The notes under the pieces: model-generated
Databases searched by the model: none
Seen by the model: only the letters and a program-made list of their open reading frames with translations
What the model was told of the DNA's origin: nothing
IMG/VR virus record: IMGVR_UViG_3300027659_000234
Coordinates: 1-22,244 of that record
Reading direction: 5' to 3' (one strand)
DNA length: 22,244 bases
Origin: a virus
Program-made: the position numbers and the translations under genes
Shown here: piece after piece, positions 1 to 22,244 of the stretch
Layout: each line of letters begins with the position of its first letter
How positions within the stretch are numbered: position 1 is the stretch's first letter

Positions 1-3000
1 GGTATAGCGTACGAGAAGAGCAAAGTATCTCGCTCGGAAAAGACCGGCAAAGCTGGTCGGCCAGATGAAGGATTCTCCAAAGCCACCAACGGGGTGCAAG
101 CTCTTGCACGAGTCATAAAAACCGGCAACGCATTCCAGAAGTTTATTGCCCAGCGTCTGCGCAACTTTGTTAAAGACGTAGAGTTTATCGTTGTTGAAAA
201 AGGCGACCCCATACCTGAGCAGTTGCAGCGAAACATAAACGACTGGAACGCCGCACGGGGGTTGTTCATTGAAGACCTACCTGCTAAAACTCGCAGGGTC
301 TATGTGCGCGGGGCTAGCTTTGGGGTTGACCAAGGCGTCAATAATATTACGGTGCTGCACGAGTTGCTGCACGCTGCTACAAACCAGAAGCTGTCTTTGG
401 GTCTGACGGCTATTGCTAATGGTTTCTCTAGTGATGCGCTGCTGACTAGGGCTACGCGAGCGTTTACCCGTGTGATGATGAACGCAAGTGATGCGTACGA
501 AGCTATGGATGCAGCGGGTAAAGTGCCCGATGATCTTCGTGCGTTGGTGGAGTCCACACTCGATATAGACGAGAACGGCAACCCATACTTCAAGATTTTT
601 GAACTGCATCAGGAGTTCTTGGCCTACGGCATGACCGAGCCCGTAATGCAAGAGTTCTTGATGGCTGTGGATGCTACGCAAGCTAAGGGCTCGGCGTTCA
701 ATCGCTTTGTTCGCGCCATCATGGAGTTCTTTGGGGTCGGCGAAAAAGACTTCAGCGCCATGACCGACTTGGTTTTGATTACCGACAAGATTTTGTCCGC
801 GCAGAAAACACCCACCATGCGCAAGCTGGAACGAGTCGAACGCGGGGAGAGCTACGAACAAGTCTTTGCCTCGGCCAAACAGACTCGTAAAAAAGTTGAT
901 AAAGTCGCCGAAAAATTAGGTAAGGGTAATTTCCGTGACGACATCAAGCCTAGTGGTTTGATTGAGCAGTTGATACGCATGCGTAGCATGGAGGAATTTC
1001 TTGAAGCGCTTACGCAAGGCAAAGTTCAACTCAAAGACGCGGTAATGCAGCAACTGCTTCCGGCGTTACAAACAGGGGCTCTTGTACGTTGGGCAGGCAA
1101 GTTAGGTGTTAAAGGCATGAACACAGCGTGGGCAAACATCGAGAAGATGAACGCCATGCGTAACAAGGCTAACAACGATCTGTTTGAGATTGCTGAAGAC
1201 TTGCGAAAGCTAGGGGCCAAAAACGCTAAACAGTACAAAGCACTTGCCGATGTAATGCACTACTCGACCCTTGTGTCGAAAGACCCAAACACAGATACCT
1301 CAAACAAAGGGCTGGTTGAACTGTGGAGCCGACTGCTTCCAGAAAACAAAGCGTTGTACAACAAAGTCCGTCAGTACTACGAAGACAACCACAAGGCATA
1401 CCACGAAGTTCTCCAAGAGCAGATTGATGCGTCCGACCTGCCCGGTAGCGCTAGCGACCCTAAGTCACCAAAAGGCAAGCTAATTGCGTCTATCAAGCAG
1501 ATGTACGAGGACGGCAAGAAGCGCTATCCGTACTTCCCCCTCATGCGCTATGGGCAGTTCTGGGTTCGCGTGGGCAAAGGGCAAACTCGTGAGTTCCACA
1601 TGTTTGAAAAGCAGATAGACCGTGATCGTTTTGTTAAAGAGCGCGTAAAGCAACTGAACGCTGAAACCGGCAACACACGCACTAAAGACGAGATGATGCA
1701 GGGTGGGGATATTGACGAGGGCAATAGCCTGTCTAACGCACGTAAAAAAGATGTAGCCGCCAGTGAAATGCTGAAGGAAATATTTAATAACATCGACTCT
1801 AGCAAGCAAGGCAACACACTTGACGCCGACAAGCTCAAGGATGACATCTATCAGATGTACTTGCAGACTCTTCCAGACCGCAACTTCCGTCGGCAGTTCT
1901 TGACTCGTCAAGGCATTGCTGGTTTTTCAGGGGACATTAACCGTAACCTTGTGACCACCGGCACGAACATGGCAAATCAGATTGCGCGTATCAAGTACGG
2001 CCCTGAGATCATGCGCAACCTTGAGAGCGCTTCAGCTTCCTTAGAAGGGAACCCAAACAAAGCTAGATTGGGCGACTTCGTTGCTGAAATGACTATGCGT
2101 GCAGAGAAACAGATTCGCCCAACCGCCGAGGACTCAATCGGTTACGAAGCCTCAAGGTTTGTTACTACTGCGGCCTTCTTGTGGATGATGACTTCCATCA
2201 AGACTATGGTGGCCCAGCTTACTGCTGTGCCTGTGTTCGTAGCCCCAGTACTTGCGTCTCATCATGGTGTGGCTAAAACTGCCGCCGCTCTTGCTTCGAC
2301 CTTGAATGTATTTAACGGACTCGGCGTAACCAAGACCAATCCCGACGGGTCTACTAGCTATACCATGCCTAGTATGGAGAACCTTAAAGGGCTGACCGCA
2401 GATGAAAAATTAGCCGCTCAGTACATGCGAGACACCGGTATCAGCGACACCACGATGGCCTTTGATTTGGGCAACCGCCGCAACGTACCAACCGCAGAGG
2501 CGCGTAGTGCTTTTGCAAGGGGGCGTAAGGCTACGTCTGACGCAATGACTGCGCTGTTTCACCACGCCGAACGGATGCTTCGTGAAGTGACTTTTATGAC
2601 TTCGTATCGGCTGAACCGCGACAAAGGGTTGACGCACGAAGCAGCTTTGAGCGCCGCCGCCGCTGAATCTCACGAGGCGTTAGGTAACTACCATGCGTCT
2701 GAAAGACCTCGGGGTCTTGCAGCAAATAAAGCGGGGGAGGTAGGACTCAGCGCCGACAGCCCAATTGGTCGCGCCATCTTGCAGTTCAAGATGTTCCCTG
2801 CGTTTGTTACCACGTACTTCATACGCAATGCGTACAACATGTTCAAGGGTTTGACTCCTGAAGAGCGCAAGCAAGCCAAAATTCAATTCTTGGGTTCGCT
2901 CGGCATGTCGTACGCGCTTGCTGGGTATGTCGGCATACCCGGTATCAGTATGGCTATGGGTGTCATCCAAGGTGCTCTGAACGCGCTTAACAAAATGAGC

Positions 3001-3822
3001 GGTGACGATGAGGATGACCCGCTTGAAGGCCGAGACTTTGAGTTCTGGTTCCGCAACATTTGGCTCCCACAGACATTCGGCAACGTAAAGATTGGCGGCT
3101 ATACGCTTGATGAGTTCCTTGATAAAGGTTTGATTGCTGGTTTGACTGGCTACGACATCAGCAGCAGCATGTCCATGAACAACATGTGGTTCCCCGAAGT
3201 AAAAGACCAAGCCACTGCCCAAGCTGAGATGATGGACTACTTGCTTTCTTTGGGAGGTCCGGGTGTTTCCCTTGTCAAGCAGACTGGTCGGGCTATTGAC
3301 TTTTTCAATCAAGGAAAGATTCTTCAAGGTATGGAGCAACTGGCCCCGGCCCTGTTCCGTGCGCCACTGACTGCGTATCGGTATTCTCAAGAAGGTGCGC
3401 AGACTACAACCGGTGCATCTATCAAAGACGCGGAAGAGTTCACCATAGGTCAGATTCTGGCGCAGGGGGCTGGCTTTGCTACTGACGGGCTCCAAGCTCG
3501 CCGAGAGGCTATCTTCAAAATCCAAGGGTTGATTCTGGAAGCTAAGCGTGATCGCTCCAGCGCGTTGGCTAGGTTGGACTTGGAGATCACCAAGGGTTCT
3601 GACAACGACGTTGAAAAGTCTATTGACAAAATCATCAAGTACAACGACAAGAACTATTGGGACCCAATCACAAGCGCTCAGATCAATGAGTCTTTGAAGA
3701 AACGCATAGAGCGTAGGCTGATGTCTGATCGCGGGTTCCCGATTGACAAGAAGTACTATCCACAGGTCATGGACTTGCTGGAGCCAAGCTACAAGAAACT
3801 GGAACGCGAAGCCCAGAAATAA
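1..3822 (+). CDS. Giant internal virion / ejection-type protein, 5'-partial, with HExxH protease-like motif
   Basis: The frame is open from base 1, so the 5' end lies outside the window; a GTG at 94 is only an internal candidate start. At least 1,273 residues are visible. Counting from the GTG, a zincin motif HELLH sits at residues 89-93 (nt 358-372), followed by an EFLAYGM segment near residue 174 that could supply a third metal ligand. The middle is long, charged and helical. Hydrophobic stretches occur near residues 690-735 and 935-965, and an SPIGRAILQFK segment near 889 recalls the PLxRFG/LPD38-type C-terminal regions of very large phage polyproteins. Such proteins are packaged in the virion and enter the cell with the DNA. 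It is the only + strand gene here and likely ends a late (structural) module. The virion role and LPD38-like assignment are inferred from size, motif and memory of the family; protease activity is unproven. Confidence 0.82.
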   Translation, partial: GIAYEKSKVSRSEKTGKAGRPDEGFSKATNGVQALARVIKTGNAFQKFIAQRLRNFVKDVEFIVVEKGDPIPEQLQRNINDWNAARGLFIEDLPAKTRRVYVRGASFGVDQGVNNITVLHELLHAATNQKLSLGLTAIANGFSSDALLTRATRAFTRVMMNASDAYEAMDAAGKVPDDLRALVESTLDIDENGNPYFKIFELHQEFLAYGMTEPVMQEFLMAVDATQAKGSAFNRFVRAIMEFFGVGEKDFSAMTDLVLITDKILSAQKTPTMRKLERVERGESYEQVFASAKQTRKKVDKVAEKLGKGNFRDDIKPSGLIEQLIRMRSMEEFLEALTQGKVQLKDAVMQQLLPALQTGALVRWAGKLGVKGMNTAWANIEKMNAMRNKANNDLFEIAEDLRKLGAKNAKQYKALADVMHYSTLVSKDPNTDTSNKGLVELWSRLLPENKALYNKVRQYYEDNHKAYHEVLQEQIDASDLPGSASDPKSPKGKLIASIKQMYEDGKKRYPYFPLMRYGQFWVRVGKGQTREFHMFEKQIDRDRFVKERVKQLNAETGNTRTKDEMMQGGDIDEGNSLSNARKKDVAASEMLKEIFNNIDSSKQGNTLDADKLKDDIYQMYLQTLPDRNFRRQFLTRQGIAGFSGDINRNLVTTGTNMANQIARIKYGPEIMRNLESASASLEGNPNKARLGDFVAEMTMRAEKQIRPTAEDSIGYEASRFVTTAAFLWMMTSIKTMVAQLTAVPVFVAPVLASHHGVAKTAAALASTLNVFNGLGVTKTNPDGSTSYTMPSMENLKGLTADEKLAAQYMRDTGISDTTMAFDLGNRRNVPTAEARSAFARGRKATSDAMTALFHHAERMLREVTFMTSYRLNRDKGLTHEAALSAAAAESHEALGNYHASERPRGLAANKAGEVGLSADSPIGRAILQFKMFPAFVTTYFIRNAYNMFKGLTPEERKQAKIQFLGSLGMSYALAGYVGIPGISMAMGVIQGALNALNKMSGDDEDDPLEGRDFEFWFRNIWLPQTFGNVKIGGYTLDEFLDKGLIAGLTGYDISSSMSMNNMWFPEVKDQATAQAEMMDYLLSLGGPGVSLVKQTGRAIDFFNQGKILQGMEQLAPALFRAPLTAYRYSQEGAQTTTGASIKDAEEFTIGQILAQGAGFATDGLQARREAIFKIQGLILEAKRDRSSALARLDLEITKGSDNDVEKSIDKIIKYNDKNYWDPITSAQINESLKKRIERRLMSDRGFPIDKKYYPQVMDLLEPSYKKLEREAQK

Positions 3823-7225: not shown

Positions 7226-8110
7226 TTACTCCTCGTCAGACCAAGCCTTAACCACGTCATCCAGACCCTTCTTCACAGTGGAGGTAGGTGTAGCAGCTTT
7301 AGTGCTTTCTCGTTTGACCGGCTCGGCAACCGCTGCGGCAGCAGCTTTCGGAACAGGAGCGGCCAGAGCAGGAGCACGGCCAGCCATATCCGCTTGGTAC
7401 GGAGTCATGGTGACCATCTTCTGCACTTCTGGTTTCTTGGCAACTTCGCTTGTCACCGCGTACTGGTCTTTGTTGATGAACCGAGCAGGTGTAAACAAGA
7501 TGGACTGATTGTCGTTGTTCTCGTTAAAGCTCAACGTGGTAACAACGTAGTCCAAGCTCTTGCCGTTGTTGGCCAAGTACTTGGTGTAGTTCTCAAAGGT
7601 GTGGGTGTTGTCGGCAGTGCCGTCACCGAACAAGGACTTCGAGGCTAAGTTCAGTTGATAGACCTCGCCTTCCAAGGAAGTACCAAAGTCTTCCACCAAG
7701 TTCACAGCAATACGGCGTGAGTAGCGACAAGCCTTAGAAGTGCCTTGGCCCGAACCTTTAATGTTCTGACCGCAGGTGTCGCAGCGGCTAGCTTGCGGAG
7801 AAACAGAACCAGCGTCAGGCGCTACGCCGTCATTAGAGAAGCAATCTGGGGCGCTCGGCTCAGCGTCTGGAGTCCACGGCTTTAGATAAAAGATACGACC
7901 GACTTTAGGCGATGCGCTCACGATGACAACTTCAAGGTCGCCTTTAACTTTACCCATCTCTTCGCCGCCGACCATCTTGCGGAAGATACCGTTCTTAGGC
8001 ACGATGCGTTTGATGCCGCTCTTGCCAGCAAGGGCTTTGGTTAAATCACTGACGCCAGCAGTTTGCAGGAAGTCAGGCAGGTCTTGGTTCAAAAGTGCAA
8101 TGTTGCTCAT
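7226..8110 (-). CDS. Putative ssDNA-binding protein with zinc site and acidic tail (294 aa)
   Basis: The protein has four cysteines (C90, C110, C113, C128), with CDTCGQN and CRYSRR blocks likely forming a zinc site, in a core that looks mostly beta (GRIFYLKPWTP, VYQLNLASKSLFG). A low-complexity Ala/Pro linker (about 243-265) precedes an acidic C-terminal tip (DDVVKAWSDEE). An acidic tail after a flexible linker is a hallmark of phage and bacterial SSBs, where it recruits replication partners. The position between a coiled-coil protein and the primase-helicase fits. The start at 8110 has a GGAG Shine-Dalgarno. I infer SSB function from architecture and context; no direct homolog was identified by name. 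Confidence 0.6.
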   Translation of the reverse strand: MSNIALLNQDLPDFLQTAGVSDLTKALAGKSGIKRIVPKNGIFRKMVGGEEMGKVKGDLEVVIVSASPKVGRIFYLKPWTPDAEPSAPDCFSNDGVAPDAGSVSPQASRCDTCGQNIKGSGQGTSKACRYSRRIAVNLVEDFGTSLEGEVYQLNLASKSLFGDGTADNTHTFENYTKYLANNGKSLDYVVTTLSFNENNDNQSILFTPARFINKDQYAVTSEVAKKPEVQKMVTMTPYQADMAGRAPALAAPVPKAAAAAVAEPVKRESTKAATPTSTVKKGLDDVVKAWSDEE

Positions 8111-17947: not shown

Positions 17948-18181
17948 TTAAGCGCGTGTCCTAGTAGGGTAAGGCACTATGAACCCCGCACTGGGTACGC
18001 TCTGGCGCGGCTCGTTGTAGAACACCCGCAACTCAACGGACTTGCTGTCGTGAAACCTTTGAGGCGAGACCTCGCGCATCTCAGAAGCAACCTTGTCAAT
18101 CTCCGGAATGCCGCCTTTGACGGCGTCCATCAGGAACTTCTGCATGTACGTTGGAAGCAGTGTGTGGTACGGGTGCTTCAT
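17948..18181 (-). CDS. Small hypothetical protein (77 aa)
   Basis: The product MKHPYHTLLPTYMQKFLMDAVKGGIPEIDKVASEMRE ... ends YPTRTRA. It is basic with a helical first half and no recognised motif. The start at 18181 overlaps the DUF3310 gene stop by ATGA. Its stop begins the 140-nt gap that carries the promoter at 17830. In the +1-shifted frame an open stretch (LKSFGGKADAEL ...) continues past the stop up to the promoter. Confidence 0.72.
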   Translation of the reverse strand: MKHPYHTLLPTYMQKFLMDAVKGGIPEIDKVASEMREVSPQRFHDSKSVELRVFYNEPRQSVPSAGFIVPYPTRTRA

Positions 18182-18696
18182 GCCGCACCCTTGTTAGTGA
18201 ACTTCTCAATCTCGCGGCCCAGATACCACTGCGCTTTGAGCAGGTCTTCCTTGCGGTTGCCTTTGTTGTCGGCTCGTGCGATGTACTTCACTACGTTACC
18301 AAGGTGATAATTCAACTGCTTGGCTTCTATGAAGTCGATGGTCTCGATTCCACCTACTTTGTAATGGGCAGGTTGATTGACGTTGTCGGCTTGTGGCTCA
18401 GCCGCTTGCATACGGATACGTGGCTTGGTCAGGTTGTAGACCATACGCGCCGTCTGCTCGTCTGTTAGCTCAGTCACCTCGTCTTTCACCATAGTCGCGC
18501 CAAGGTGCTTGACTATCGACTGATTGCTTGTGCCCACGGAAACGGTTTTCCACTTCGGGTTATTAGTTCGTACAACGTATACGTACGCAGCGCTTGTCCC
18601 ACACGCTTCTGCTACTTGCTTGGCACTCGCAGTGGGGTGCTTTGCTTGGTATGCGCGTACACGGGCTGATACATTTTGCTTCTTAGATTTTGCCAT
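18178..18696 (-). CDS. HTH plus DUF3310 protein (172 aa)
   Basis: Two parts. Residues about 22-43 (TASAKQVAEACGTSAAYVYVV) look like an HTH after a basic start (MAKSKKQNVSARVRAYQAKH). Residues 104-166 are a DUF3310 domain (NVNQPAHYKVGGIETIDFIEAKQLNYHLGNVVKYIARA ... DLLKAQWYL), a small helical module common in phages and sometimes described as nucleotide-kinase-like, without firm function. The combination suggests a DNA-tethered version. The start at 18696 has AAGGAG and gives a 14-nt overlap with the RHH gene. Confidence 0.85.
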   Translation of the reverse strand: MAKSKKQNVSARVRAYQAKHPTASAKQVAEACGTSAAYVYVVRTNNPKWKTVSVGTSNQSIVKHLGATMVKDEVTELTDEQTARMVYNLTKPRIRMQAAEPQADNVNQPAHYKVGGIETIDFIEAKQLNYHLGNVVKYIARADNKGNRKEDLLKAQWYLGREIEKFTNKGAA

Positions 18697-18895
18697 TGTT
18701 AGCTCCTTGCTGTTGGCTGTTTAGGTACTCAGTAAGAACTTCTCGGATTTTGACTTGCTTGTTGGGAAAGGTATCGAAGTACTCGACCACCTCTCGCGGC
18801 AAACGCAAGCTCGTATTGACAAGAGTCGGCTTCTTACTAGGGCCGCGACCTCGTCTTTTTTTCTCTACTTTAAGATATTCAATTCCTGTTGTCAT
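18683..18895 (-). CDS. Ribbon-helix-helix-like DNA-binding protein (70 aa)
   Basis: After a basic arm (KKRRGRGPSKK, about 12-22) the segment TLVNTSLRLPREVVEYFDTFP then KIREVLTEYLNSQ has the beta-strand, helix A, helix B pattern of RHH (MetJ/Arc-type) repressors, with the strand VNTSLRLP as the DNA-contacting ribbon. RHH proteins dimerise on DNA, often on palindromic sites. A regulatory role in this operon is plausible. Start at 18895 by ATGA overlap with AGGGGGA upstream. Confidence 0.8.
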   Translation of the reverse strand: MTTGIEYLKVEKKRRGRGPSKKPTLVNTSLRLPREVVEYFDTFPNKQVKIREVLTEYLNSQQQGANNGKI

Positions 18896-19119
18896 TGCTG
18901 TTTCCCCCTATGCTCAGCCGCCATTCGGCGGTATATAGAAATGTTGTTCTTGATAGCTCGTGGTTCGGAACTTGAGTTCTTGCTTACGATTTGAGGCTGC
19001 GGGAACTCGGCGAACACAATCAAGAAATGCGAACCGCTACGTGGTTCAATCTCAGTTATTGTGAAGCCAGCCTTCTCGTACTCAATTAGCTGCTTGCGTA
19101 GCGCTCTAGGGAAGTGCAT
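18892..19119 (-). CDS. Small conserved phage protein (75 aa)
   Basis: The product MHFPRALRKQLIEYEKAGFTITEIEPRSGSHFLIVFAEF then PQPQIVSKNSSSEPRAIKNNISIYRRMA. The order helix, G-F-x-strand, GSHF-strand, P-x-x-V strand and a final helix is reminiscent of the small dsRBD-like fold of HicA, but the HicA catalytic His context differs and no HicB partner is adjacent, so a toxin call is not justified. The start at 19119 has AGGAG and a 14-nt overlap with the upstream gene. Confidence 0.78.
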   Translation of the reverse strand: MHFPRALRKQLIEYEKAGFTITEIEPRSGSHFLIVFAEFPQPQIVSKNSSSEPRAIKNNISIYRRMAAEHRGKQQ

Positions 19120-19930
19120 TGCCCTTCTCCTCGTCCAACATCACCACAAAAATTTCACTAGACACTCGGCAACCTATGCCAGTTACCATCGCCTCGTCCT
19201 CTACCAACTTGAGCATGCCCACCTTGGCGCGTAGAGCATAAGGCAAGTCGGTGTCACCGTACAGTTGTACATTGTCGCGTATCTTAACAATATATTTCCC
19301 GCTTTCCAACACCACCAGTGCAAATTTTTCATCGTCCATGCACTGCGTTACCTCTTTGATAGTCCTCATGTCAAGCTGGGCTTCTCCTAACTTTGTTAGA
19401 TGCTCAAGCGTTTCTGCATCATGCGTGTCCTTCAACCACTGCGTGTACTGACTTATGTGTTGCCTACCGTAATTCACCATGCTTTTGTTGATAGGGTCGC
19501 TATGATTCCTTAGCTCCAGTTGCTTTTTGTACCCCTGCTCATTCATACACTCTTTTGCTTTCTGCACCGCCTTGCCCATACGCTCGGCTAGCACCATTGG
19601 GCCAAAGTTCTTCTTCACTTTGAGCAACGCTTTGTCTACCTTGTCGGTGTGGTAAGCGCTCTTGCGGGTGCTGTTCATACCAATGCGGTCGTTACGCACA
19701 AACAACTTTTGACTACTGCCATGCCATTCGGAACCGATGATGCCTAGCTGCTCCCTATCACATAGCACAAGGAAAGTGCGTGGGCTCGTCACTTCAATAG
19801 TCCACAGTGGGTTCTTGGTCGCTACCTCCCACGCCAATCTCTTAGCGTCTGCCATCATCCTGTCTTCAGATATAGTCCCAGAGTCTTTACCCATACGCAC
19901 GTTGGGCAACTTCAATAATTCATAGCTCAT
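19106..19930 (-). CDS. Conserved phage protein of unknown function near VWA gene (274 aa)
   Basis: No enzyme motif recognised. The N-terminal half has strands and charged helices (LWTIEVTSPRTFLVLCDREQ, RIGMNSTRKSAYHTDKVDKALLKVKKNFGPMVLAERMG), then a long helical part, and the C-terminus has YIVKIRDNVQLYGDTDLP and VSSEIFVVMLDEEKG. I chose the ATG at 19930 (GGAG six bases upstream); the frame is open to 19969. The fixed context, next to the 284-residue protein and the VWA protein, suggests a shared pathway. Confidence 0.8.
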   Translation of the reverse strand: MSYELLKLPNVRMGKDSGTISEDRMMADAKRLAWEVATKNPLWTIEVTSPRTFLVLCDREQLGIIGSEWHGSSQKLFVRNDRIGMNSTRKSAYHTDKVDKALLKVKKNFGPMVLAERMGKAVQKAKECMNEQGYKKQLELRNHSDPINKSMVNYGRQHISQYTQWLKDTHDAETLEHLTKLGEAQLDMRTIKEVTQCMDDEKFALVVLESGKYIVKIRDNVQLYGDTDLPYALRAKVGMLKLVEDEAMVTGIGCRVSSEIFVVMLDEEKGNALP

Positions 19931-19940
19931 CATCTTCTCC

Positions 19941-20795
19941 TTACCACTCAAACTTCTGCAAGATTGCATCTACCTTGTTCTTCATAGACTCACGCGCATG
20001 AAAACTCTCTTTGATTGTTTCAATGTCAGCTCCTAACATTGTTAGCTCTAGCTGCTTACGTGCTTCCTCCAGCTTGGGGTCGTTCGTAATGTTCATCTTG
20101 TCCAGCAAGCCAACCAAGTCCTGTGCATTGGTTACCAGTGAATCGTGGTAACGCTTCTTCGAGTCCACACCATCCTCGTCTTTCAGCTTCTCAGACATGG
20201 AAGTCAGCACAGTGTGCAGTCGCTCCCACGGCGTACGCATAGCCTCGGCCAACCGCTCGTCGAACTTCGCTTCGTAGCCTGCCTTCACTTCTTCTAAGTC
20301 CTGCGCTGATACATCCAAGCGGAAGTCACCAGACTCAGGTATCGGGTCGAACGCCTTGCGGAACCCAAACTTCATCCGCACATCTTCCAACTCGGGGTAG
20401 TCCTCGGCTCGGTACATCGTGCCCAAGTGCTGTTGTGCCTCGGCTACTAGGCGCGGGTACTCCACGAAAAAGTTACTGCACAGTTGGGAGAACTGCACCT
20501 CGTAGTTGTTCATCGTCTGCTTGTACTCCATGAACAACTTAGTCGGCAACAGTCGCTGTCCCTTGTCAGCCCACGGCAATGTGTTCTGGTTGTGATAGAG
20601 GCGTATCCGTGCCGCCAGCTTCTCAATGTCTTTGCGTAGGCTAGTACCCGCAAACAGATTCTTCCGCGTCTGTGACGCATCCCGCACCGCTGATGCGTTG
20701 GTGTTCACTGTCTCGGTCATCTCTCGGTCAACCTTGTTGGCTGGCCACACGCTGATGTTTAGTTCTACTAGAACTGCGCTTGATGCAATGCTCAT
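19941..20795 (-). CDS. Conserved helical phage protein, VWA-associated (284 aa)
   Basis: Begins MSIASSAVLVELNISVWPANKVDRE and continues mostly as helices: RKNLFAGTSLRKDIEKLAARIRLYHNQNTLPWADKGQRLLP, then a coiled C-terminal region. I recall homologs of this N-terminus adjacent to VWA and AAA-ATPase genes in several phages, where they are annotated only as hypothetical. The start at 20795 has GGAG and overlaps the upstream stop by 4 nt. The palindrome copy at 20033 lies in codons for LTML in its C-terminal helix. Function unknown, but linkage supports a joint VWA complex. Confidence 0.82.
   Translation of the reverse strand: MSIASSAVLVELNISVWPANKVDREMTETVNTNASAVRDASQTRKNLFAGTSLRKDIEKLAARIRLYHNQNTLPWADKGQRLLPTKLFMEYKQTMNNYEVQFSQLCSNFFVEYPRLVAEAQQHLGTMYRAEDYPELEDVRMKFGFRKAFDPIPESGDFRLDVSAQDLEEVKAGYEAKFDERLAEAMRTPWERLHTVLTSMSEKLKDEDGVDSKKRYHDSLVTNAQDLVGLLDKMNITNDPKLEEARKQLELTMLGADIETIKESFHARESMKNKVDAILQKFEW
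20033..20045. repeat. Palindromic repeat CTAACATTGTTAG, copy 3 (inside VWA-associated gene)
   Basis: Exact copy; the 17-bp stretch 20031-20047 is identical to that at 13055-13071 in the polymerase gene. Read as CTA ACA ATG TTA (LTML), again using CTA and TTA leucine codons. Confidence 0.7.
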
Positions 20796-21136
20796 TTCAT
20801 TTCTCCTTTAGCTTTAGCTTCTGCTGTTTCTTTTCTATGCCACCACATCCATGTGGTCTCATCTTTATCCTCAAGGGCTTCTTCAAACGCATACTGCACA
20901 TTCCTTTGTAGGTCTTGCAGTTGGTCGTGGCGCAACACTTGGAACGCTCCATCGCCAGAAAGAGGATGCGCCTCTGCCGCTGCCCAAACTTTCTTCCAAC
21001 CCTCATCCCAGTCAGTCATGTCGTGCCAACCAAGGTAGCCAAACACACTTTCTTCATAGCCTATAAAGTAGAACCGCACAAAGCCGTTCTTGTGTGGGAC
21101 TCCGTCTTTGTCATCCATCCAGTTATCTGTGCTCAT
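20792..21136 (-). CDS. Hypothetical protein, acidic and Trp-rich (114 aa)
   Basis: The product has GFVRFYFIGYEESVFGYLGWHDMTDWDEGWKKVW and ends ETTWMWWHRKETAEAKAKGEMK, acidic in the middle and basic at the tip. No catalytic motif and no family recognised. The start at 21136 has AAAGGAG, 4 bases after the upstream stop; ATGA overlap with the next gene. Position in the VWA cluster is the only functional hint. Confidence 0.78.
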   Translation of the reverse strand: MSTDNWMDDKDGVPHKNGFVRFYFIGYEESVFGYLGWHDMTDWDEGWKKVWAAAEAHPLSGDGAFQVLRHDQLQDLQRNVQYAFEEALEDKDETTWMWWHRKETAEAKAKGEMK

Positions 21137-21140
21137 CTCT

Positions 21141-21386
21141 TCACTCCTTTAAAAGTTTCATAAAGTTCTTCATCTCTCGCTCATTCAATCGTCCCGCTAT
21201 CCGCATGCCGTCCTTGTCGTAGATAGCCCACTTCCCATGCTTGCGTCTGGCGTAGTAGTCGGGCTTGTCTTTGCCGTCCATAATCATTTGGTAAATGCTC
21301 GTGCCCTGCACACGGATAGAAGCCGCAAGATTTTTTGTGTAGTGGTCGCTAATGTCCTTGAACACTTCTTCTTGTAAGCTACCCAT
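21141..21386 (-). CDS. Small hypothetical protein (81 aa)
   Basis: Start at 21386 (MGSLQEEVFKDISDHY) after a strong GGAGG; the longer frame to 21440 would overlap the upstream gene and is rejected. The product has a helical first half and a second half with YYARRKHGKWAIYDKDGMRIAGRL, which looks like a short beta-sheet domain, then a basic-acidic helix (EREMKNFMKLLKE). No family recognised. Confidence 0.75.
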   Translation of the reverse strand: MGSLQEEVFKDISDHYTKNLAASIRVQGTSIYQMIMDGKDKPDYYARRKHGKWAIYDKDGMRIAGRLNEREMKNFMKLLKE

Positions 21387-21387
21387 A

Positions 21388-21609
21388 TCAATCCTCCGGT
21401 TTACCCGCCAGCTTAGCCATGCGGTACAAATCAGTGCCAATCATCTTCGCCTCGAAAGTCGTATCGTTCGGCCACACATGGTGAGTGCTCGCGTCACTCG
21501 CCCGATACTTGAGCACATACCGCTCGGCATTCTCAAGAATCTCCAGTAACCGCACCGCGTCCGCAGTCTGCATCACATAGTGGGAATATCCCAAGGTAAC
21601 AACCATCAT
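21388..21609 (-). CDS. Small hypothetical protein downstream of VWA gene (73 aa)
   Basis: Start at 21609 (MMVVTLGYSHYVMQTADAVRLL) after GGAGG; it begins two bases past the VWA stop. The longer frame to 21699 is an overprint of the VWA gene. The product has a beta start (VVTLGYSHYVM), a helix (AVRLLEILENAERYVL), and an alpha end (DLYRMAKLAGKP). Unknown function. Confidence 0.75.
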   Translation of the reverse strand: MMVVTLGYSHYVMQTADAVRLLEILENAERYVLKYRASDASTHHVWPNDTTFEAKMIGTDLYRMAKLAGKPED

Positions 21610-21611
21610 GC

Positions 21612-22244
21612 TCACACCTCCAGATAGATAGTCTTGCCGTTGTCTGATACCGCATCGGTGTTGCCACCGCTGATGACCCACATGGTCGGCGCTGTCCACT
21701 CGCTACCCCAGTTCGGTACATAGCCATCGGTCAGCACAATGATTGCCTCGGGCTTGATGTTCTCGTTCTTCAGGTACTCCGATACACAGCTTGGGTCTGT
21801 ACCGCCACCACCCTTGGGCTTGGTAGAACTAACAATGTTAGACACCGCCGCACCCTCGTACTTCTCATGCGCGGCAACCTCGCCGTCCCAATAGATTAAG
21901 TCCACCACCTCGGGGCTGACCTCCTCGGCGATACCCTGCACTTCGCTCAGGAACTCGGCAAGCTCGGGCCCGCCAATGCTTCCTGATGTGTCAATAGCCA
22001 CAACCAAGTGCCCGACCTTCTCGCCAATCATGCTCGGCATGTACACGCCCGTAGATAGAAACCGGCGGTTAACCCGCCGCCATGAGCTTGCGTCTTTGTT
22101 GGAACATGTAGTCTTGACGAACTCGCGCAACACCTCACGCCAGTTAATCTTCGGGGCTAGCAAGTCCTCAAGCTCTCGGTCTAACCCACCGCCGCCCTTG
22201 CCCACATTCTTCTGGTGTGCAATCAAGCCTTGACGAATCGCTTG
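21612..22244 (-). CDS. VWA-domain protein, DUF2201-like, 5'-partial
   Basis: The frame is open to the window edge; a TTG at 22226 is not a convincing start. The visible part has a Gly-rich stretch then INWREVLREFV and SSWRRVNRRFLSTGVYMPS, and a von Willebrand A-like domain: MIDAS DTSGS (nt about 21992-21978), GGGGTDP and LTDGY. This layout matches the C-terminal VWA-like domain of DUF2201 proteins, whose N-terminal part has a metallopeptidase-like domain; that part would be outside the window. VWA proteins often pair with MoxR-type AAA ATPases, which would be expected just upstream. In phages they are conserved (N4-like phages also carry a VWA/AAA pair) but their target is not known. Confidence 0.88.
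   Translation of the reverse strand, partial: QAIRQGLIAHQKNVGKGGGGLDRELEDLLAPKINWREVLREFVKTTCSNKDASSWRRVNRRFLSTGVYMPSMIGEKVGHLVVAIDTSGSIGGPELAEFLSEVQGIAEEVSPEVVDLIYWDGEVAAHEKYEGAAVSNIVSSTKPKGGGGTDPSCVSEYLKNENIKPEAIIVLTDGYVPNWGSEWTAPTMWVISGGNTDAVSDNGKTIYLEV
21829..21841. repeat. Palindromic repeat CTAACAATGTTAG, copy 4 (inside VWA gene)
   Basis: Same sequence as the other copies in reverse-complement orientation (central base A on the + strand). Here it encodes SNIVS in another codon phase, so conservation is at DNA rather than protein level. Confidence 0.7.

Follow-up and report, generated by a model that had tools for sequence, protein, structure and literature searches.

The gene p284 of the phage DNA analysed here (the window; 22,244 bases, which make up one entire IMG/VR record) encodes, judging from its homologues, a distant DUF3150 protein, and in phages as well as on plasmids genes of this kind accompany genes for a MoxR-like AAA ATPase and a DUF2201 VWA protein (together, the trio). 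Gene content, gene order, domains, conserved motifs and the co-occurrence in phages and plasmids were observed directly. On balance, we lean towards an ATP-driven protein-remodelling machine in which p284 would be a dedicated third subunit and whose client would not be a part of the virion. A wider proposal, which we put forward tentatively as possible rather than probable, is that AAA, DUF3150 and VWA constitute an undescribed three-part remodelling machine of mobile elements, which in phages and plasmids alike acts on one kind of target inside the cell during replication or establishment in a newly entered cell, and does not build virions; it stands beside a PRTRC (ThiF, ParB) cassette and conjugation genes in Burkholderiaceae plasmids, with related sets in a MinM2-type phage and an alphaproteobacterial plasmid.

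The VWA gene at the window end

The 3′ part of a VWA co-chaperone gene (21612..22244, minus strand; 210 aa) lies in a frame that stays open up to the window end, and the gene is incomplete because the record itself stops there. Two Pfam families score above cut-off on this fragment: DUF2201, for the VWA domain (3.6e-18), and DUF2201_N, of which only the end is present (1.4e-10). A second contig (L002), identical over 8,630 bases, extends the gene by some 390 bases, and in a further relative (L004) it is whole and encodes 404 aa (Pfam: DUF2201_N, 4.3e-26; DUF2201, 1.5e-17). From these annotations, the window fragment is the C-terminal 210 aa of a predicted protein of about 404 aa, which combines a metallopeptidase-like DUF2201_N domain with a DUF2201 VWA domain carrying an intact MIDAS. 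An earlier note on this DNA had already recognized a VWA (DUF2201) protein and expected its remainder beyond the window; the call proved correct, and the remainder is present in L004.

The MIDAS (DxSxS, T, D) is complete, and its residues are invariant across 33 aligned representatives (alignment A2). The codon of its first aspartate (D of DTSGS) is located at 21990-21992, and the T and D codons at 21798-21800 and 21726-21728, all on the minus strand. Counting ORFs that are closed at both ends and reach the length limit, an HExxH pattern occurs in 67/67 complete VWA proteins of the lineage; the motif belongs to the N-terminal domain, outside the window, and its H, E and H are invariant in 33 aligned representatives. 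Going by the motif, this site may cleave the client or have a structural role. A sequence comparison of the VWA protein with solved structures returned nothing useful (best E 0.019).

The label "HNH endonuclease" that PHROG 1314 would give to the VWA protein was rejected, as Pfam at E ≤ 1 yields only DUF2201_N and DUF2201 for the 404-aa protein and no HNH. The same label is attached to this VWA/metallopeptidase family in phrog_1314 and in many of the phage records listed, including N4, K479, and phiAxp-3 (L172, L173, L175).

The AAA partner and the neighbourhood in related phages

Relatives were collected by an IMG/VR scan for the VWA protein (best 80 of 100 kept) and by a scan anchored on p284 (best 80 of 496 relatives), plus further scans; locus counts refer to loci with enough flank and exclude the window itself (L001). 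An AAA gene lies upstream of the VWA gene in 44/44 relatives with at least 3.5 kb of upstream sequence, which bears out the earlier prediction of a MoxR-type AAA gene just right of the window. The encoded protein, read from L004 because the gene falls outside the window, matches Pfam AAA and AAA_5 above cut-off, and the motif GEPGIGKS is present in 53/53 complete AAA proteins. Pfam AAA_3 is absent from the matches of the L004 protein and stays below cut-off on the AAA proteins of Synechococcus phage MinM2 and Variovorax; the designation "MoxR-like" is thus a putative one that rests on AAA_5, on matches to annotated MoxR-like proteins and on context. By sequence, the AAA protein matches midasin among solved structures (3.1e-6). 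The AAA gene is itself preceded by a gene for a protein of about 340 aa in 36/38 loci. The VWA gene therefore does not head the cluster, as had been assumed, since these two genes come before it.

Downstream of the VWA gene, p284 (19941..20795, minus strand) is present in 75/76 and p287/p274 in 67/67 VWA-anchored loci with room for them. This fourth gene, p274/275 (19106..19933, minus strand), is conserved in the lineage; read from its first ATG, at 19969, it would encode 287 aa, while the most likely start is at 19930/19933, and its Shine-Dalgarno-like sequence overlaps the p284 stop codon. The association of the 284-aa and 274-aa proteins with VWA/AAA phage loci was accordingly well placed. 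Of the five proteins following the VWA protein that had been described as a conserved cluster, these two are conserved, while the other three are small proteins found in 38, 7 and 2 of the 55 loci with 5 kb downstream: one of 73 aa from its likely ATG (21388..21609), one of 81 aa from its likely ATG (21141..21386) and one of 114 aa (20792..21136), all on the minus strand and listed in the order of these counts. Nor do the six genes co-occur across named phages. Among 50,697 named phage records, the VWA protein matches 736 (E ≤ 1e-5), p287/p274 none (E ≤ 1) and p284 only three (E ≤ 1e-3), each of 65,014 bases and with identical DUF3150 proteins.

When loci are anchored on p284 instead, VWA is found in 61/62, AAA in 42/42 and p287 in 76/76. 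The sole p284 locus without VWA (L168) is on a contig of the MinM2 type, which stops 163 bases past the gene. The anchored sets overlap and come mostly from one freshwater lineage, so they show conservation and not independent association. One locus (L008) keeps AAA, VWA and p274, while its p284, at about 7490-7590, retains only some 30 codons of the two termini, joined in one frame; the loss is a genuine deletion or else reflects collapse during assembly. Pairwise distances among the four proteins correlate after accounting for DNA polymerase (partial r 0.57–0.69; 0/500 permutations as high for each pair) over the 23 of 80 loci that have all five proteins at sufficient length, which is weak evidence because linked genes share history.

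p284 as a distant DUF3150 protein

The DUF3150 profile (PF11348) does not match the p284 of the window; it matches one of 22 relatives, at 0.0014, and returns nothing even at E ≤ 1 in 12 long relatives. The assignment comes instead through homologues. p284 matches a MinM2 protein annotated as DUF3150 (tblastn 6e-26 over 99%; hhalign 99.7%) and a protein from a Candidatus Manganitrophus plasmid (tblastn 9e-14 over 98%), the latter of which passes PF11348 with 35.3 bits against a cut-off of 24.9. By way of such homologues over the Pfam cut-off, p284 is classified as a distant DUF3150 protein, and we propose it as the dedicated third subunit.

Structure models offered no functional clue. The p284 model (pLDDT 79, pTM 0.57) has no fold match in the PDB at E ≤ 0.001, and its VIA-align matches, mostly helical bundles (best Z 9.5, rmsd 3.1, 92 aligned), fall short of the level of about 13 that is informative for such folds; the sequence gave nothing useful against solved structures either (best E 0.3). 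Similarly, p287 has no PDB fold match at E ≤ 0.001, and its best VIA-align result, a YdhG-like protein (Z 6.2, rmsd 4.0, 98 aligned), is not informative. Five viral-library folds match p287 at E ≤ 0.001, all of them uncharacterised phage proteins.

A single scan of genome contigs retrieved two contigs, which are perhaps phage sequence that had been binned. PF11348 matches nothing in the 21 genomes surrounding one of the two, in a setting where the control also lacks any match. DUF3150 is not named in the openly licensed PubMed Central literature searched, and DUF2201 appears in no title or abstract there.

The trio in phage MinM2 and on plasmids

In MinM2, a MoxR gene, a DUF3150 gene and a DUF2201 VWA gene lie within 4.5 kb in the order AAA-(1 gene)-DUF3150-(3 genes)-VWA, and the gene separating AAA from DUF3150 is small. 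The window lineage has the order AAA-VWA-DUF3150, whereas plasmids have AAA-DUF3150-VWA; membership of the trio is kept while its order varies.

On plasmids, p284 as query finds 44 records at E ≤ 1, with 25–30% identity in the 30 matches listed out of these 44, and a Cupriavidus DUF3150 query finds 42 at E ≤ 1e-3. VWA is present on 41 of these 42 DUF3150-like plasmids, and AAA on the same 41. The DUF3150 and VWA genes are at most 150 bases apart in 40/41 (2.8 kb in CP015038), and the AAA gene ends less than 200 bases from DUF3150 in 39/41; the gap is about 3.7 kb in Simplicispira, and CP126319, whose AAA gene spans the record start, stands outside that count. In agreement, in the six plasmid neighbourhoods read first, VWA adjoins DUF3150 in five and AAA directly precedes it in four. 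As 34 of the 41 plasmids belong to Burkholderiaceae, they are not 41 independent cases; the more distant ones are four from Variovorax, one from Simplicispira and two from Rhodovastum.

Four plasmids with 14-kb flanks, from Cupriavidus, Caballeronia, Burkholderia contaminans, and Robbsia (L181-L184), show the surroundings of the trio. A PRTRC cassette with genes E, C, F, B, A and ThiF lies a few kb upstream in 4/4, with a ParB gene in view in three, and type IV secretion (conjugation) genes follow downstream in 3/4.

The exception among the 42 is the Candidatus Manganitrophus plasmid, which is not among the matches listed for VWA or AAA and has no annotated VWA gene within 8 kb of DUF3150, in an annotation table that is itself incomplete. 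On this plasmid (L086), a different AAA gene and genes for DUF1257 and DUF2997 proteins precede DUF3150, and a JAB-domain gene lies close by. The set is perhaps another DUF3150 machine.

AAA-VWA pairs without DUF3150

The pair is more widespread than the trio: VWA matches 119 plasmid records against 42 for DUF3150-like proteins. Whole-record profile searches of eight AAA-VWA phages (LUZ7, phage G, phiFa, N4, K479, S-TIM5, phiAxp-3, and PT15-A5) found a DUF3150-like gene in 0/8; all seven records that did match had supplied rows of the alignment used (A6), so a very divergent third protein could have been missed. On Sphaerotilus and Synechocystis plasmids, MoxR adjoins VWA with no DUF3150 gene annotated nearby. 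Since most VWA phages have no p284 match and none of the eight has a DUF3150-like gene, not every AAA-VWA pair requires p284. A hidden DUF3150-like gene in N4-type phages was considered and rejected: 21 candidates from eight phages and five plasmids, most of them encoded near the pair, scored below 4% in hhalign against alignments A1, A6, A3, and A4, and the MinM2 DUF3150 protein alone exceeded 4% (against A1 and A6).

In the VWA and AAA trees, the freshwater phages form one group (100/100 in both), and MinM2 groups with a Rhodovastum plasmid (96/92 and 98/91, respectively), a placement that points to kinship between the set of a phage and that of a plasmid. Other trio plasmids stand apart, with several long branches and weak deep forks. 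Read from these trees, the trio may go back to an old set that some lineages lost, or may have come together on more than one occasion. Across a mixed panel of 26 VWA proteins, the MIDAS D.S.S is kept in 26/26 and HExxH in 24/26; the plasmid proteins of Variovorax and P. dioscoreae have lost it.

Comparison with known systems

The AAA-VWA pair itself has been published. In jumbo phages, a MoxR AAA+/vWA-metallopeptidase pair has been described and proposed to act in virion assembly (Iyer et al, 2021; PMC7824862), and the same source reports a MoxR-vWA system for tail assembly in Acidianus two-tailed virus; its main text does not name DUF3150 as a third member (0 occurrences). The jumbo-phage pair resembles ours in that a MoxR-type ATPase adjoins a vWA protein whose N-terminal part is a metallopeptidase domain. 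The same pair is found as gp24/gp25 in N4 and as homologues in Schitoviridae, with identities of about 30–34% for VWA and 23–27% for AAA among the N4-type matches listed. Unlike the window lineage, N4, LUZ7, phiAxp-3 and PT15-A5, and also K479 from the same group in the trees, yielded no DUF3150-like gene. The closest parallel in content is provided by the DUF3150/AAA/VWA plasmids of Burkholderiaceae and others, which have all three proteins and differ in their gene order and, in the four with 14-kb flanks, in the upstream PRTRC cassette.

Other pairs differ from the window set in their clients, and we know of no DUF3150 partner for NorQ/NorD, CbbQ/CbbO, or RavA/ViaA. The latter two are named beside NorQ/NorD in work on that pair (PMC9976466), which found that the MIDAS of NorD is needed for the client enzyme and not for NorQ binding and which modelled the VWA domain as plugging the NorQ ring. 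The likeness lies in the proposed principle, in which a MIDAS grips the client and an AAA ring pulls, and in the MIDAS kept in the window protein. MoxR-vWA ternary conflict systems likewise add a third protein to the two, namely VMAP, iSTAND, FtsH or a beta-propeller (Kaur et al, 2020; PMC7159879); the main text of that paper contains 0 occurrences of DUF3150. Pfam detects no VMAP, iSTAND, FtsH or beta-propeller match in p284, p287 or the upstream protein of about 340 aa, although remote versions are possible.

A proposed machine and its alternatives

We infer the ring, the gripping, the third-subunit role and the class of client. The parts of the machine would be the MoxR-like AAA ATPase, the DUF2201 protein with its metallopeptidase-like and VWA/MIDAS domains, and p284, with p274 added in this lineage. 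By analogy with NorQ/NorD, the AAA protein would form a hexameric ring on which the VWA protein docks; the MIDAS metal would grip an acidic patch on the client, and ATP turnover would pull on it. Gripping and pulling rank above cutting, because D.S.S is more widely kept than HExxH in the mixed VWA panel. p284 may choose or hold the client, or may itself be the client, and p274 might adapt the machine to this lineage. The client would probably be a replication, establishment or host complex and not a virion part.

This proposal has to be weighed against a chaperone-protease for virion assembly, in which the AAA-VWA proteins and the metallopeptidase domain would fold and trim structural proteins, with p284 and p274 as scaffold or substrate. 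Jumbo phages are the case for which such a role has been put forward (Iyer et al, 2021; PMC7824862), the Acidianus two-tailed virus system offers an analogy, and the HExxH pattern of the lineage (67/67 complete proteins; H, E and H invariant in 33) would suit it. Yet two of five trio-plasmid VWA proteins have lost HExxH, with the MIDAS kept in all five, and plasmids, which have no capsid, keep the trio, so that the client is probably not a virion protein. Among 11 longer relatives, five yielded a terminase gene, and in each of these it is encoded on the other strand from the trio; the match is strong in L016 (PHROG 38, 6.4e-110) and weak, below the PF03237 cut-off, in G002, G004, G006, and G012. 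In the window, the strand of the trio also carries genes for a DUF927 protein, an SNF2 helicase, a PD-(D/E)XK nuclease and DNA polymerase A, and our best reading is that the trio is encoded on the replication strand. Moreover, N4 gp24/gp25 are core genes described as having middle transcripts and are absent from the virion table of PMC4193335. Virion assembly is thus less likely as a general role, given the plasmid trio and the opposite strand of the terminase, and we regard it as rather unlikely here.

That the trio is common to phages and plasmids would equally be expected of a conflict module, one that inactivates a defence complex of the host or keeps competing phages and plasmids out. Its layout of MoxR, vWA and a third protein is that of the published ternary systems (PMC7159879), and a plus-strand gene of the window matches a DarB-like antirestriction PHROG. 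We nevertheless consider this reading improbable: neither p284 nor p274 nor the upstream protein of about 340 aa shows a known effector domain in Pfam, and PADLOC on seven proteins gives only short, weak AAA matches (best 0.0012). The genes are also steady within the lineage (VWA 61/62, AAA 42/42, p287 76/76), unlike patchy counter-defence genes, and the plasmid trio follows a PRTRC cassette (4/4), with conjugation genes after it in three. An activase similar to NorQD, inserting a cofactor or metal into a phage or plasmid metalloenzyme, would draw on the finding that the MoxR-VWA pair NorQ/NorD is required for enzyme iron insertion (PMC9976466); by annotation and position, however, no metalloenzyme gene was seen as a common neighbour of the trio across the phage and plasmid loci inspected, and we give this possibility very little weight.

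If the remodelling machine is as we propose, the third protein, as a companion of the pair on both phages and plasmids, provides a handle on the client, and the search for that client shifts from virion assembly to an intracellular complex common to both kinds of element. This bears on N4-like phages, in which MoxR-VWA pairs are core genes and for which the literature consulted does not give a client. Plasmids of harmless Cupriavidus would be convenient test systems.

Further genes and related records

Beyond the fourth gene, on the minus strand, the window encodes a DUF3310 protein (18178..18696) that is found in 52/55 loci with 5 kb downstream; the replication genes, including that for DNA polymerase A, come after it along this strand. 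It is accompanied by a 70-aa protein (18683-18895, minus strand) that is present in 51/55 relatives with 5 kb downstream and has a weak antitoxin PHROG match (2.6e-4). At the other end of the window, positions 1-3822 on the plus strand hold the C-terminal part of a very large protein that runs off the left record end and matches the DarB-like antirestriction PHROG (4,647 positions, 4.1e-73) and Pfam LPD39. Lastly, in the IMG/VR record behind L070 (65,223 bases), the VWA gene is split between both contig ends on the same strand, which suggests that a circularly permuted phage genome of about 65 kb is here nearly complete.
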